Assembly (NCBI RefSeq): GCF_900111585.1 | Contig: NZ_FOHI01000001.1 | Location: forward strand, 591,016 to 655,015 | DNA: 64,000 bases | Direction of reading: 5' to 3' | Origin: Nitrosospira multiformis | Lineage (GTDB): Bacteria > Pseudomonadota > Gammaproteobacteria > Burkholderiales > Nitrosomonadaceae | In this document: positions 9,589-23,460 of the stretch, one piece after another | Position numbering within the stretch: position 1 is the first letter of the stretch | Layout: each line of letters begins with the position of its first letter | Made by a program: the position numbers and the translations under genes | Notes under the pieces: model-generated | Seen by the model: the letters and a program-made list of their open reading frames with translations, nothing else | The model's database searches: none | Told to the model about the DNA's origin: nothing

Positions 9589-9675
9589 CCTTTGCGCCTT
9601 GTCTTCCAGTCTTTATCGGCTATAAAGAAATATTGGTTTGATATGAAAAGTGCTCGAAGTTAGCTCGATAATCCA

Positions 9676-9684
9676 AAAGGAAAG
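9676..9684 (+). promoter_or_regulatory. Ribosome binding site selecting the ATG at 9689
   Basis: AAAGGAAAG lies 4 nt before ATG 9689. The upstream in-frame GTG at 9650 has no comparable purine tract, so the shorter start is preferred. Confidence 0.6.
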
Positions 9685-9688
9685 AACA

Positions 9689-10873
9689 ATGAACGTATCT
9701 GAATATGTTCGCGTTACCAGTCTTCCTTACAGCTCCCTCTCGCACGAACTCAACATTTGGGGCAAGCTTTTCTCATCGAAGCAGCTCGCATTCAACATGC
9801 AGATGCAGACCCAATCCAACTGGTGCTGGGCGGCAACCGCAACGAGCGTATCCCATTTCTATTGGTGGTGGAGTACGTGGACGCAATGCCGGGTCGCAAA
9901 TGGAGAGCTTGATCATAGCGACTGTTGCGACACTCCCGTTCCCTCGGCATGTAATGTGCCCTGGTATCTCGACAAAGCCCTCACTCGTACCCACAATTTT
10001 GTCAGCATAATGGGCGGGCAAGCCAGTTTTCAGGCGGTGAAGAGTGAAATAGACGCTGGCAGACCCGTCGGGGCGAGGATCGGATGGAACGGCGGGGGCG
10101 GCCACTTCATGGTGATTTATGGTTATAGCCGTGTCCTTGCTCAGGAGTACTTTGATATCGATGATCCGATATATGGAAAGAGCCATCTTGCTGTCTCCGA
10201 TTTTGCCAGCAATTATCAAGGAAGCGGCACCTGGACACATACGTATTTCACCAAGAGCTTTTTCAAAATGCCAATAAAATATCTCATCCCGCTAGAGTCT
10301 ATACTTCATCGCATATGGGAAGCTCGTTCACTGCTCCAGATAAAACAGGGAAAAATTCCGGCAACCGAATCCGCAGAATCGCGTGCATCTCGAGAAACAG
10401 AGGATGAAAAACGAACATCTCTGGGCATGGCGCAGCGCGTATATTCCCTGGGGCTGGATTCATTGCTCGGTTCGCGGCAGGTAGCTCCGAAACCCGTTGC
10501 CTTGCGGGTTTACGAAATTGTAGGAGACACTCCCCAGGCTTTTTACGATGTTACCGAGGAAGGCGAGTCCCGCGTGCTGCAAATGTCCGCGGCACAACGG
10601 CAACTGGATTTATTCTCGCAAGGTTTGGCCAAAGTTCTGGAGGCGGTGGGAGAAGCGGAGCAGGAGGCTGAACTTCGCGTATTTCGCGTGCCTGCGCTGA
10701 ATTTCGAAGCGCTATGGATCAGCTATGGAGACGAAGGCAGGGACTTGCTTGTTCCATTGCACGCGGTAGGCCGTCTGGTGCAAAACGAGCCGGTGCCCAT
10801 GCGTGAGGCCCTGGAGGCGTTACGAGAAGCAGCACGGCCATTGGCAAACATGGATGACACGATGGGAGCGTGA
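9689..10873 (+). CDS. Papain-like cysteine peptidase (C39/C70-type fold) next to the NRPS
   Basis: A 394-residue protein. The N-terminal half looks like a papain-like cysteine peptidase: Q42-SNW-C46-WAA matches the oxyanion-Gln/catalytic-Cys arrangement, H139 lies in GGGGHFMVIYGY, and D158/D159 in DIDDP could be the third catalytic residue. This resembles the AvrRpt2-like/C70 and 'papain-like cysteine protease' groups. Residues ~215-394 are a helical, charged region that I do not recognise. No signal peptide or membrane segment is visible, so it is predicted cytoplasmic unless exported by another route. It follows the synthetase by 100 bp on the same strand and converges on the esterase. A role in siderophore maturation is inferred only from position. 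Confidence 0.75.
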   Translation: MNVSEYVRVTSLPYSSLSHELNIWGKLFSSKQLAFNMQMQTQSNWCWAATATSVSHFYWWWSTWTQCRVANGELDHSDCCDTPVPSACNVPWYLDKALTRTHNFVSIMGGQASFQAVKSEIDAGRPVGARIGWNGGGGHFMVIYGYSRVLAQEYFDIDDPIYGKSHLAVSDFASNYQGSGTWTHTYFTKSFFKMPIKYLIPLESILHRIWEARSLLQIKQGKIPATESAESRASRETEDEKRTSLGMAQRVYSLGLDSLLGSRQVAPKPVALRVYEIVGDTPQAFYDVTEEGESRVLQMSAAQRQLDLFSQGLAKVLEAVGEAEQEAELRVFRVPALNFEALWISYGDEGRDLLVPLHAVGRLVQNEPVPMREALEALREAARPLANMDDTMGA

Positions 10874-10894: not shown

Positions 10895-11866
10895 TTAAGT
10901 TCGAGGCGCAGCAAAAGCCCCCCGTAGCTGCTGCGCAACTTCTTCACGCACCTTGCTTGCGTCGTTGAGGATATTCGTCAGGCGCGCAAAGTCGTGCGTC
11001 ATGCCCTCGTAAATTTTGAACTGAGCGGGAACGCCGGCGTCTCTGAGCCTGTTGGCGTATTCAATTCCTTCATCCACGAGCGGATCGTATTCCGCCAGTA
11101 CAATAAATGCCGGAGCGAGGCTGCTCAAATCCTCTGCTTCGAGTGGTGCAAAACGCCAGTCTGTCCGGTCTCTTTCGCTGGTCAGGTAATTGCTGAACAT
11201 CCATTGCAGCGTCGGGGCTTCGAGCAGGTATCCCTTCGCCAGACGGCGGTGCGAATCGGTATCCTGCCACGCGCTTGTGCACGGGTAGAGCAACGCCTGG
11301 AATACCGGTTGTGGCCACCCCATTTCCCTGGCGGCGATAGTCAATCCGGTGGCTAGCGTGCCCCCTGCGCTATCGCCTCCCACGGCTATGCGTTGGGGAT
11401 CGATACCATGAGCGAGTCCGTTGGAAAGAAGCCATTGGTAGGCATCCTGGGCGTCATGCACCGCGGTGGGAAACGAATGCTCAGGCGCCAACCGGTAGCT
11501 GACGTTCAACACGCAGCAGGGGGTCAGCGCAGCCAGTGTCCGGCATAGTGAGTCGTGGGAATCCAGGCTGCCGATACAATATCCGCCTCCATGAAAATAC
11601 AGCAGCGCGGGTGTCGCCAGGCCGTTCAACGGCTCGTCCAGCAGAGGCGCATAGAGTCTTGCCGTTATCTCGTTTCCATCCCGGCAAGGGATGCCGATTT
11701 CCTTGACGCTCGCGACCTCCATACCTGGGCTATCCAGAGCCAGGGTGGATATGTCGTATTGTTCGCGCGCTTTCGTGGGCGGCAACTCATGCAAGGGAGG
11801 AGCACCGTTGCTGATGCCCGCTTCCACAAGTTCGAGAAATGCTGCAAGATCAGGATCAAGCGCCAC
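10895..11866 (-). CDS. Alpha/beta hydrolase, hormone-sensitive-lipase (HSL) family esterase
   Basis: A 323-residue carboxylesterase of the HSL/GDSAG class. The oxyanion motif HGGG is at 92-95 and the nucleophile S166 lies in GDSAGG; the probable triad is completed by D261 (EYDPLVDEG) and H291 (MTHDF). There is no signal peptide, so it is cytoplasmic. It is the last gene of the minus-strand siderophore operon, 44 bp after the TonB-dependent receptor, so it could release iron by cleaving the imported ferri-siderophore. It is not of the Fes/IroE enterobactin-esterase type, so that role is inference; a general short-chain esterase is the alternative. Confidence 0.87.
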   Translation of the reverse strand: MALDPDLAAFLELVEAGISNGAPPLHELPPTKAREQYDISTLALDSPGMEVASVKEIGIPCRDGNEITARLYAPLLDEPLNGLATPALLYFHGGGYCIGSLDSHDSLCRTLAALTPCCVLNVSYRLAPEHSFPTAVHDAQDAYQWLLSNGLAHGIDPQRIAVGGDSAGGTLATGLTIAAREMGWPQPVFQALLYPCTSAWQDTDSHRRLAKGYLLEAPTLQWMFSNYLTSERDRTDWRFAPLEAEDLSSLAPAFIVLAEYDPLVDEGIEYANRLRDAGVPAQFKIYEGMTHDFARLTNILNDASKVREEVAQQLRGAFAAPRT

Positions 11867-20237: not shown

Positions 20238-20636
20238 TCATTGGTGCGGAATCATTTTTCTGCCCAGTAACGATAGAGCCACTCTGCGGCCGGCCGCGAG
20301 CACAGGATAAACCACCTCAGCGGCATTTCTGTTGCGGAACAGGAATTTGTTCAGTCTTCCAAAAGGTCCCCTGTCAGCACTGAGTATGGAGAGAAGGTGC
20401 ATCGCATTGGCCCCGTGGTAATAATGCCTCTGCCATATCACGACCATGCCTTCATTGATTTCCATGCCTTGGGCCCGCAACTCCGCGACCAGATCAGGCC
20501 TTGTCCGGGCGTCGATGAGTTCTATCCCGCCTATATTCTTCCGTAAAGCGTAAAGCTTCACAAACGCCGCACAAAAAGGGCATTCCCCGTCATAAATGAT
20601 GGAGAGGCGATTTGAATCACTCGCAGTTGCTGTCAT
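20238..20636 (-). CDS. DCC-family thiol-disulfide oxidoreductase-like protein (DUF393)
   Basis: A 132-residue small protein beginning with the family motif IIYDGECPFCAAFV: D-G-x-C-P-x-C with two Cys in a CPFC arrangement, as expected for the DCC/DUF393 family. The rest (WQRHYYHGANAMHLLSIL, a basic C-terminus) is also family-like. It overlaps the HTTM gene stop region by 4 bp (20633-20636) and is the last gene of the four-gene operon. DCC proteins often sit beside HTTM/VKGC-like membrane proteins, but the redox substrate is unknown. Confidence 0.85.
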   Translation of the reverse strand: MTATASDSNRLSIIYDGECPFCAAFVKLYALRKNIGGIELIDARTRPDLVAELRAQGMEINEGMVVIWQRHYYHGANAMHLLSILSADRGPFGRLNKFLFRNRNAAEVVYPVLAAGRRVALSLLGRKMIPHQ

Positions 20637-21466
20637 ATCCAGCCCATCCAGTTTCGAACCGCCGAATTAGCTAGCATGACAGCCGGATAAGTCGCGAGAA
20701 AAGGCCAGACGAACGCGTTCAATCCCATGAAGTAGGCATTGGCAAAATGAAAAAGGGCGAAGCAGCAAAGACTTGCAATCGCCACGCCGGGGGGTGCCAA
20801 TAGAACGAGTGGAAACAGCATTTCCGTCCCGATAGTCAGCCAGCATACGAACTTACAGAAGGCGGGCCGCTCTGCGGCAAAACTCGCGGCAAGGGAGTGT
20901 CCGTATGTTCGAGTTTTCATCACACCGAGCAACGCATTTCCATCTCGCCAGACCGGCGAAACAACCTTAGCGGCGCCGGCAACAAAATAGGCGAGGACCG
21001 CTTGACCGCTGATGGCAAAAACACCAGAGGCCGCCAGGTTCATGTCATCCAGCGCAAGGCCGGCGGAAATGATGGCAACACCTGCGGCAATGACCATTCC
21101 CATCTGATCCGAGCCATCGCCACCGAACCACGTGCGGCGTGACATGTAGAAGCATGAAAGCAGAATGAGCAGGCTGCACGGCAAATCCGCAGGACTAGGG
21201 TAGGGGATCAGCAGCAGAAGCCCTGCGGCAATACGGCATACCAGGACAGCAATTACAGCGGATTCCGCATACACATGATGGCGAACGGATACGGGGATTA
21301 AAAGACGTGGGCGCAGGCGCAGGATATTCCATGTGAGCAAGCCATCGGATCGAAATAGGTGAAGGTTGGCAAACCATTCCGCTGCGGAAAGGAGGGCCCA
21401 TGCGGCCAATAGAGTCTTGGTGATGAGAAGGCATAAGGCGATGTCCGCCATGCCTTCAGTTACCAT
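20633..21466 (-). CDS. HTTM-like multi-pass membrane protein (gamma-carboxylase-like fold)
   Basis: A 277-residue integral membrane protein with roughly six to eight hydrophobic helices and short polar loops (SRRTWFGGDGSDQMG, AKVVSPVWRDGNALLG). The layout, and the AAKxxSPxWRDG plus FHxxxxxFMGLNAFVWPFLATYP segments, resemble HTTM domains, which are related to vitamin K-dependent gamma-carboxylase. Overlaps of 7 bp with the upstream gene and 4 bp with the DCC gene indicate translational coupling. In this context it may modify or export the peptide encoded at the operon's head, but no substrate is shown. Confidence 0.75.
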   Translation of the reverse strand: MVTEGMADIALCLLITKTLLAAWALLSAAEWFANLHLFRSDGLLTWNILRLRPRLLIPVSVRHHVYAESAVIAVLVCRIAAGLLLLIPYPSPADLPCSLLILLSCFYMSRRTWFGGDGSDQMGMVIAAGVAIISAGLALDDMNLAASGVFAISGQAVLAYFVAGAAKVVSPVWRDGNALLGVMKTRTYGHSLAASFAAERPAFCKFVCWLTIGTEMLFPLVLLAPPGVAIASLCCFALFHFANAYFMGLNAFVWPFLATYPAVMLANSAVRNWMGWI

Positions 21467-21975
21467 CGGCTATGAAAACTGGAAAGGAATGAGCATTCCA
21501 GTTCCCGCTCAAGGTGCCCTGTAGACTCGATAATCGCGATTTGAAATTCGGCAGCGTCCGGCTCGGCCGGCACAGCATGGGCTGCGTAATGCAAAAGAAG
21601 GAGGTAGGGGACAGTGAAAGGAAGTCCGGAGGGTCCTACATCGTCGTGTTTCAATAACAGCTTTATTGCCTGAATCGCATCGGTCAGAATCTTCGATGCG
21701 CGCTTCTGTGGATTCCACAAGTACGCCAATTTCGGACGCGGTGGATAAACAGCCACGCTTTTCCAGTCTGTCAGCCGCCCATCGCGGTAACGCTCCCTTA
21801 TAACCAGGTGATAATCCCTGACCCCAGGATTAGGCGCAAAGAATGTCCAGCGCGGAATGATATGGAGTCCGTTAAACCGGTTGATGACGGACTGGAAGCG
21901 CGAGTTTTGCGCCAATAATGTGACTACCAGCCAAAGAGTCACTACCGAATAAAGCAGGATAGAGACTAATGACAT
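21460..21975 (-). CDS. Membrane-anchored protein of unknown function in the HTTM operon
   Basis: A 171-residue protein with one N-terminal membrane helix (~3-23, LVSILLYSVVTLWLVVTLLA) and a soluble remainder. The segment HIIPRWTFFAPNPGVRDYHLVIRE is conspicuous, and similar 'P-x-W-x-FF-AP-x-P' segments accompany HTTM proteins. There is no Cys pair and no enzyme motif I recognise. It begins 12 bp after the small peptide gene stop and overlaps the HTTM gene by 7 bp, so the three are almost certainly one operon. An accessory or anchor subunit of the HTTM protein is the simplest guess. Confidence 0.75.
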   Translation of the reverse strand: MSLVSILLYSVVTLWLVVTLLAQNSRFQSVINRFNGLHIIPRWTFFAPNPGVRDYHLVIRERYRDGRLTDWKSVAVYPPRPKLAYLWNPQKRASKILTDAIQAIKLLLKHDDVGPSGLPFTVPYLLLLHYAAHAVPAEPDAAEFQIAIIESTGHLERELECSFLSSFHSRW

Positions 21976-21987
21976 GGTGAGTTCATA

Positions 21988-22203
21988 TCAGCTAAGCGCG
22001 TTCTCGCGAAGTTTCATGAGTACGCCCAGCGACAGGCCCTCTCCCCCTGATAAGCCTGCATTATCACCCGCTACAGCCGTGCCGGCATTACCAATGGGTA
22101 TCACGATCTGCTCATATTTGTCGGACGTATCGGACGTCATTCTTCTTGCTTCTATAACGGCATCCAGTCCCGCAAGTTCCGCCTCGGCAAGTTTTGTCAT
22201 CAT
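21988..22203 (-). CDS. Small Cys-free Gly/Ala-rich peptide at the head of the HTTM operon (possible precursor peptide)
   Basis: A 71-residue peptide. The N-terminal half is charged and helical (KLAEAELAGLDAVIEARR), followed by a Gly/Ala-rich segment (GNAGTAVAGDNAGLSGG) and a C-terminal tail EGLSLGVLMKLRENALS after a Gly-Gly pair at 53-54. No Cys, Trp or Phe is present. Two Met codons start it; GGAGGA at 22204-22209 directly abuts the first, so the second (22200) may be the real start. The leader/GG/core layout and tight linkage to membrane and redox genes suggest a modified or exported peptide, but this is inference; a small structural protein is the alternative. Confidence 0.6.
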   Translation of the reverse strand: MMTKLAEAELAGLDAVIEARRMTSDTSDKYEQIVIPIGNAGTAVAGDNAGLSGGEGLSLGVLMKLRENALS

Positions 22204-22209
22204 TCCTCC
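22204..22209 (-). promoter_or_regulatory. Strong ribosome binding site of the 71-residue peptide
   Basis: GGAGGA on the minus strand abuts the first ATG (22203) and lies 3 nt from the second (22200). Such a full Shine-Dalgarno supports the small gene as genuine. Confidence 0.65.

Positions 22210-22386: not shown

Positions 22387-23460
<1,074 letters not shown>

Follow-up and report, generated by a model that had tools for sequence, protein, structure and literature searches.

Linaridins are peptide antibiotics belonging to the ribosomally synthesized and post-translationally modified peptides (RiPPs); LinL is the marker protein of their gene clusters, its partners being an HTTM protein and an alpha/beta-hydrolase (PMC9927463; here and below, statements cited by accession come from excerpts of the papers). 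Predicted linaridin clusters are given for Pseudomonas and Pedobacter (PMC4432341, PMC4384143), therefore linaridins outside actinobacteria are not new as predictions. The role of LinL and LinH appears, from the excerpts considered, to be disputed: dehydration has been assigned to LinH/LinL or to kinases and lyases, and epimerization to GrmL. Here we describe an operon in a 64,000-nucleotide stretch ('the window') of Nitrosospira multiformis (contig NZ_FOHI01000001.1, positions 591,016 to 655,015); Nitrosospira is a common soil nitrifier, ammonia-oxidizing. Four minus-strand open reading frames (ORFs) at 20238-22203, with spacings of +12, -7 and -4, were found as a first-pass annotation had described them; they code for a small peptide, a LinL-like protein, an HTTM-type protein and a DCC protein.

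We favor, with moderate confidence, the reading that this operon encodes a linaridin-like RiPP system: a membrane complex of LinL and HTTM would act on a precursor, most likely epimerizing it, with the DCC protein as redox partner. As a system for the chemical modification of a peptide, it is probably a new version. The first-pass annotation knew of no described pathway with this set of genes; that was incomplete, as two of the four, LinL and HTTM, are part of an already described type of RiPP pathway. Our literature search, with the surveys Georgiou 2020 and Xiao 2022 outside it, turned up no linaridin reported from Nitrosospira.

The features of the locus are as follows.

22204-22209, minus strand: Shine-Dalgarno sequence GGAGGA of the peptide gene, seen in the sequence and present before seven of eight gene copies
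21988-22203, minus strand: candidate precursor peptide of a RiPP, annotated at 71 aa, Cys-free (eight homologues, 37 invariant positions)
21460-21975, minus strand: LinL-like protein, 171 aa, first described as a 'membrane anchor' (BLASTP, profile-profile comparison, hidden Markov model, hydrophobicity)
20633-21466, minus strand: HTTM-type polytopic membrane protein, 277 aa (tblastn, predicted fold, invariant K167 and H240)
20238-20636, minus strand: DCC1-like thiol-disulfide oxidoreductase, 132 aa, CPFC motif (PF04134; C19 and C22 invariant in 8/8)
22387-23451, minus strand: obgE, conserved upstream neighbor, context only and outside the system (locus comparison)

The peptide gene and the operon in Nitrosospira

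The peptide gene is real and under purifying selection; dN/dS values of the window copy against the seven others were 0.00, 0.03, 0.10, 0.13, 0.15, 0.15 and 0.23. A search of 61 genomes, the window's own included, gave matches at E≤1 in 22; eight were strong (E 2e-40 to 1.5e-20) and the remaining 14 had E 0.024 or worse, mostly within long frames. The profile search of 61 genomes of the family returned the same eight along with two matches at E 0.07, which we took as chance (one has six internal stops). Exactly the eight peptide-carrying genomes among the 61 hold the HTTM gene. None of the eight homologues matched Pfam or NCBIfam, and none of 72,556 plasmid records held the peptide.

The Shine-Dalgarno sequence directly touches the first ATG; the second ATG (22200) is better spaced and its Met is conserved in all eight homologues, and for these reasons we place the start there, giving a peptide of probably 70 aa (21988-22200). 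Thus, of the earlier description, a 71-residue peptide with a strong Shine-Dalgarno, the ribosome-binding signal stood, and the length is probably one residue too great. The absence of Cys was borne out in 8/8; the Gly-Gly is residues 53-54, and the tail after it has 17 residues. The 37 invariant positions are distributed as 16 in residues 1-30, 19 in 31-58 and two in 59-71, therefore it is the middle that is constrained, not the tail. The conserved segment reads IVIPI-N...GDN.GL.GGEGLS, with E55 and the GGEGLS motif invariant in all eight. Thr (0-2) and Ser (2-4) are few in the C-terminal half, together 3-6, and S58 is the sole invariant one there. No transmembrane-like segment was seen in the hydrophobicity of the peptide.

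Gene overlaps suggest a single transcript for the four genes; promoter and terminator scans of the operon gave no signal above that of shuffled sequences. The operon is present in 8/23 genomes of the genus, with the order peptide-LinL-HTTM-DCC the same in all carriers and small overlaps varying (the HTTM start offset is -11 in locus L034 and +11 in L036). LinL and DCC genes adjoin the HTTM gene in 7/7 other loci fetched. The first-pass annotation had proposed looking for the peptide beside HTTM/DCC pairs elsewhere: the outcome was mixed. It stands there in all eight Nitrosospira genomes, but the peptide model matched just two of 19 HTTM-bearing loci scanned, both from Nitrosospira, and had no hit in L050 or L051, which likewise carry HTTM together with DCC.

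In seven of the eight carriers the operon lies behind obgE; the eighth (genome G018, locus L035) is a 4.5 kb contig starting 311 bases upstream of the peptide. The HTTM frame of this copy (L035 1044-1871) has an internal TGA and TAG, with the rest of the operon kept; it is either a decaying copy or an assembly error, and neither alignments A3 and A10 nor the HTTM dN/dS include this HTTM.

Carriers are scattered on the obgE tree (8/23; many forks weak). Genome G004 has a lone full-length DCC gene behind obgE (L072 1064-1447, 61.7 percent over 128 aa), apparently a remnant of the operon. The most parsimonious account is that the operon is old and was lost on several occasions, with the DCC gene left behind in one of them. 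Horizontal pick-up of the whole operon is not favored: the seven copies with enough flank share the site behind obgE, presence on the tree is scattered, G004 has its lone DCC gene, and GC of the four genes (0.51-0.55) is close to that of the window (0.548).

The LinL-like, HTTM and DCC proteins

By sequence comparison, the 171 aa protein is a homologue of LinL. BLASTP against three actinobacterial LinLs gave E 4e-17, 6e-20 and 3e-13, and hhalign against nine gave 1.2e-27. A hidden Markov model built from these nine proteins, none from Nitrosospira (eight opened plasmid loci are among its sources), matched both Nitrosospira loci given (L034, 1.6e-26; L036, 4.3e-30), as well as Embleya (1.7e-29), Haloplanus (3.7e-11), a partner protein in G639 (4.4e-4) and a fusion tail in G385 (7.1e-4). 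At E≤0.01 it did not report L049, L055, L097, L098 or L051; profile comparison still tied the type found in the first four to LinL (2.1e-9). The window's protein has one N-terminal transmembrane helix predicted from hydrophobicity and is 96 percent identical to the protein of N. multiformis Nl18.

As to distribution, a scan of genome contigs with two strict patterns returned 24 stretches in six loci, all Nitrosospira or Nitrosovibrio; distant LinLs were missed because the patterns are strict by design. A LinL profile matched one protein, the window's own, in 250 genomes of the order, and the Nitrosospira LinL profile matched three (its own and two fusions) in 369 genomes of the class. Against the Protein Data Bank (PDB) the top row was RBL4 at 4.7e-4, with no stretch passing; we took it as chance.

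Pfam names only the DCC protein over cut-off among the four, and NCBIfam names none; neither calls the window's 277 aa protein HTTM. The label given in the first-pass annotation is therefore owed to homologues and fold rather than to family models. With tblastn, 17/72,556 plasmid records matched (E 1e-22 to 2e-8), 11 of them Streptomyces; locus L053 gave 1e-22, L052 9e-20 (separate gene) and L054 8e-17 (fused). On this sequence evidence the protein is homologous to the HTTM proteins of linaridin-type clusters. Within the phylum, HTTM profiles gave three matches over 299 genomes and five over 397, own included, and no relative was found in viral contigs.

The best AlphaFold model of the HTTM protein reached pLDDT 76.6 and pTM 0.76 (the other four, 43-53). 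In Foldseek, ranks 1-5 among PDB matches were all gamma-carboxylase (GGCX), at probability 1.00 and TM 0.51-0.60 on query, with E 3.5e-3 to 3.1e-2 and rmsd 7.4-7.9 for the one confident model of five; matches below had probability 0.33 or less. The predicted structure thus appears to resemble gamma-carboxylase. Sequence searches of the PDB gave no match at E≤1 for the HTTM profile and nothing convincing for the DCC profile or the G219 fusion described below. Among 15 homologues nine positions are invariant, including K167 and H240 (15/15), with K167 the invariant Lys of a Y-x-x-x-G/A-x-x-K motif. The catalytic Lys218 of human GGCX presumably lies in a similar motif, a likeness of motif only, with no residue-level alignment behind it; the title of a GGCX entry in the PDB names a K217A/K218A mutant. 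The LinL/HTTM homology and this fold are both in keeping with the claim that the operon looks like a system for modifying a peptide, with a membrane protein akin to gamma-carboxylase.

PF05090 is matched by 8/15 aligned HTTM proteins and the SdpB model TIGR04033 by 6/15; the window's own protein matches neither. The HTTM tree leaves the Nitrosospira proteins in an unresolved fan together with linaridin-type and Haloplanus proteins, while two-gene pairs (90/91) and fusions (100/100) stand apart; the three Nitrosospira rows do not even form a single resolved group. Alignment A5 used four of the eight Nitrosospira proteins, A8 and A13 three.

PF04134 was found in the 132 aa protein over cut-off (E 1.4e-14, 55.7 bits against 27.8), and together with its CxxC motif, CPFC or CPLC in all eight copies, this identifies it as a DCC1-like protein. 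With the Nitrosospira DCC model, no match at E≤0.01 came up in the 11 plasmid loci, and the divergent DCC domain of G385, which Pfam sees below cut-off, escapes the model as well.

Related loci and the weighing of readings

Eleven of the 17 HTTM-matching plasmid records were opened. The hidden Markov model placed a LinL gene beside HTTM in 10/11, with a weaker LinL-like gene in L055. An alpha/beta-hydrolase was annotated in 6/9 annotated regions; Embleya and Kocuria, with no annotation, have one each by eye from ORFs (GxSxG present), and none was annotated in Rhodococcus DMU1, Paroceanicella and Haloplanus (3/11). The L054 precursor matches NF033752 linaridin_CypA at 5.7e-4 (20.3 bits, cut-off 35) and holds PVMATP; PxxxTP occurs in 8/12 candidate precursors, which were picked by hand and of which at least that of L063 may not be a precursor. 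From these sequences, most opened plasmid loci were taken as linaridin clusters. The candidate precursors of Kocuria (L058 5069-5272; none after ATP) and Tsukamurella have, by eye, no Ser/Thr after the putative cleavage region, therefore LinL/HTTM need not be dehydratases only.

Two further arrangements were seen. On a Haloplanus plasmid (L060 2454-5390) a Cys/Gly-rich 77 aa ORF, ATP-grasp, LinL-like and HTTM genes adjoin YcaO and SagB-type genes; this is an archaeal RiPP-like locus. Streptomyces plasmids L062 and L063 may carry hybrid clusters, with a lantibiotic dehydratase gene and a LanC-type gene bordering LinL, HTTM and hydrolase genes.

The observations we build on are the genes present and their conservation, the selection acting on the peptide, the homology of the LinL-like and HTTM proteins, and the apparent likeness of the HTTM model to the gamma-carboxylase fold. 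The 70-71 aa Cys-free peptide would be the precursor and substrate; LinL and the HTTM protein would form a membrane-bound modifying complex; residues in the conserved segment of the peptide would be epimerized, an HTTM active site with the invariant Lys and His abstracting the proton; the DCC protein would serve to maintain the redox state, whether of the complex or of its substrate, and cleavage and export would presumably complete the pathway. Epimerization comes out as likeliest because the LinL gene of grisemycin, grmL, is indispensable for production and its product is proposed to be a peptide epimerase (PMC10373908), and because there are few Ser/Thr to dehydrate here and none downstream in the Kocuria and Tsukamurella precursors. 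Taken by itself, epimerization is a tentative assignment that we hold at somewhat less than even confidence.

Several points weigh against a linaridin-like RiPP system. The four genes include no protease, exporter or immunity gene. PxxxTP is absent from all eight peptide homologues, and hhalign sees no likeness between their family and the precursors of linaridins (probability 0.1 percent). The LinL structure model is poor (pLDDT 47.7). LinL-like/HTTM pairs occur without the Nitrosospira-type peptide (L048, L049, L055, L097, L098), so such a pair is no proof of a RiPP; four of these five have no small ORF with a Shine-Dalgarno within 700 nt upstream, the fifth (L098) having one of 39 aa. In the excerpts cited, the epimerase activity of GrmL is only proposed (PMC10373908), LinH or LinL are thought to dehydrate (PMC7794033), and cypemycin dehydration is credited to kinases and lyases (PMC10880069).

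Since the proteins of such pairs may mature other substrates, one could suppose that LinL, HTTM and DCC form a maturation module for another exported protein, as LMF1 serves lipases and SdpA/SdpB serve SDP, with the peptide as a regulatory or adaptor subunit. The pairs without the peptide fit this, and so do two genomes of the same class as Nitrosospira: in G385 (L038) a single protein combines HTTM, a LinL-like tail and a DCC domain that PF04134 matches below cut-off (E 1.2e-4), and in G219 (L051) a DCC gene (E 8.8e-32) comes next on the strand after an HTTM-LinL-like fusion. With the separate genes, three arrangements therefore tie the protein types together. The L034 copy matches PF06762 LMF1 at 3.7e-5, below cut-off, and the SdpB matches noted above had, where seen, scores far below cut-off. 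Set against these are the position of Nitrosospira HTTMs in the fan with linaridin-type and Haloplanus proteins, apart from pairs and fusions, and the peptide gene, first in the operon and co-occurring in 8/8. We regard a maturation module as unlikely.

A bolder version of peptide modification can be speculated upon: LinL-HTTM-DCC as a self-contained redox-coupled peptide modifier on a gamma-carboxylase fold, DCC feeding thiol electrons to HTTM as VKOR does to GGCX, and the product forming its own RiPP class in ammonia oxidizers, one that would not descend from linaridins and SDP but be their ancestor or sister. We give this little credence.

Ordinary linaridin chemistry, in which LinL/HTTM would dehydrate Ser/Thr of the peptide to dehydroalanine and dehydrobutyrine, has literature behind it: besides the dehydrating role ascribed to LinH or LinL (PMC7794033), all Thr and Ser are described as dehydrated in corynaridin (PMC9927463). 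S58 of the peptide is indeed invariant. The C-terminal half offers few other residues, with S58 its sole invariant Ser/Thr, and the peptide is without PxxxTP; we find this reading improbable.

Least of all do we expect that HTTM carboxylates E55 in GGEGLS while DCC recycles quinone as VKOR does: the five GGCX fold matches, the invariant E55 motif and the invariant HTTM Lys speak for it, whereas the best Foldseek E is 3.5e-3, a fold does not give the reaction, and we know of no gamma-carboxyglutamate in linaridins and of no vitamin K in ubiquinone-based nitrifiers. The relation to gamma-carboxylase drawn in the first-pass annotation thus has support for gamma-carboxylation at the level of predicted fold only.

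Under the preferred reading, a linaridin-like RiPP system, this minimal four-gene version with no hydrolase and few Ser/Thr would reveal the own activity of the LinL-HTTM pair and would link both the gamma-carboxylase fold and DCC redox proteins with the enzymes of linaridins.

On the far side of the operon, window positions 103-20173 resemble a hydroxamate-type siderophore locus, with a 3161 aa non-ribosomal peptide synthetase (NRPS), a Lys/Orn monooxygenase, a TonB receptor, an ABC exporter and a PepSY protein. An unexpected neighbor at 9650-10870, directly after the NRPS gene, is a 407 aa protein with a PF12385 papain-like cysteine protease domain (E 1.4e-9). A link of the operon to the ABC exporter and PepSY genes was rejected: they run in the opposite direction and adjoin the operon in 4/7 relative loci, being not found in L034, L035 (the 4.5 kb contig) and L036. 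PepSY is at the obgE locus in 8/15 genomes without the operon.

Comparison with known systems

The apparent likeness to GGCX is one of transmembrane fold, as judged from the model; the HTTM protein differs in having no fused lumenal domain. SdpABC likewise combines a small protein, an HTTM-type membrane protein and a partner. Membership was rejected, with no SdpB or SdpA model match in the window's genome; the SdpA model matched nothing in 5/5 genomes, and among eight plasmid records its one match was weak (E 0.15) and did not lie at the LinL gene. LinL is not found by the SdpA model, and the peptide, unlike SDP, is without a transmembrane-like segment.

The G385 and G219 proteins share with the operon the physical linkage of the same three protein types. 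They lack the Nitrosospira-type peptide, their HTTM parts are distant in the tree, and their LinL-like tails are weak against the Nitrosospira profile (2.6e-6 and 7.7e-4).

Closest are the linaridin clusters (cypemycin, grisemycin, legonaridin, corynaridin), which like the operon have a small precursor gene and LinL and HTTM homologues. The operon has a LinL homologue and an HTTM homologue, which in linaridins is part of LinH or separate. The alpha/beta-hydrolase, the C-terminal part of LinH or a separate protein, is not among the four genes; an Abhydrolase_3 gene (10895-11866) is ∼8.4 kb away, inside the siderophore region. The Nitrosospira peptide has neither the PxxxTP motif nor similarity to known precursors. 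The operon is also without methyltransferase, short-chain dehydrogenase/reductase, decarboxylase and exporter; its DCC gene occupies the place of the actinobacterial alpha/beta-hydrolase, methyltransferase and exporter, and its host is betaproteobacterial, unlike those of the linaridin clusters compared. As we read it, the operon works like a linaridin system and is not a canonical member of the class; it should not be filed as a linaridin.

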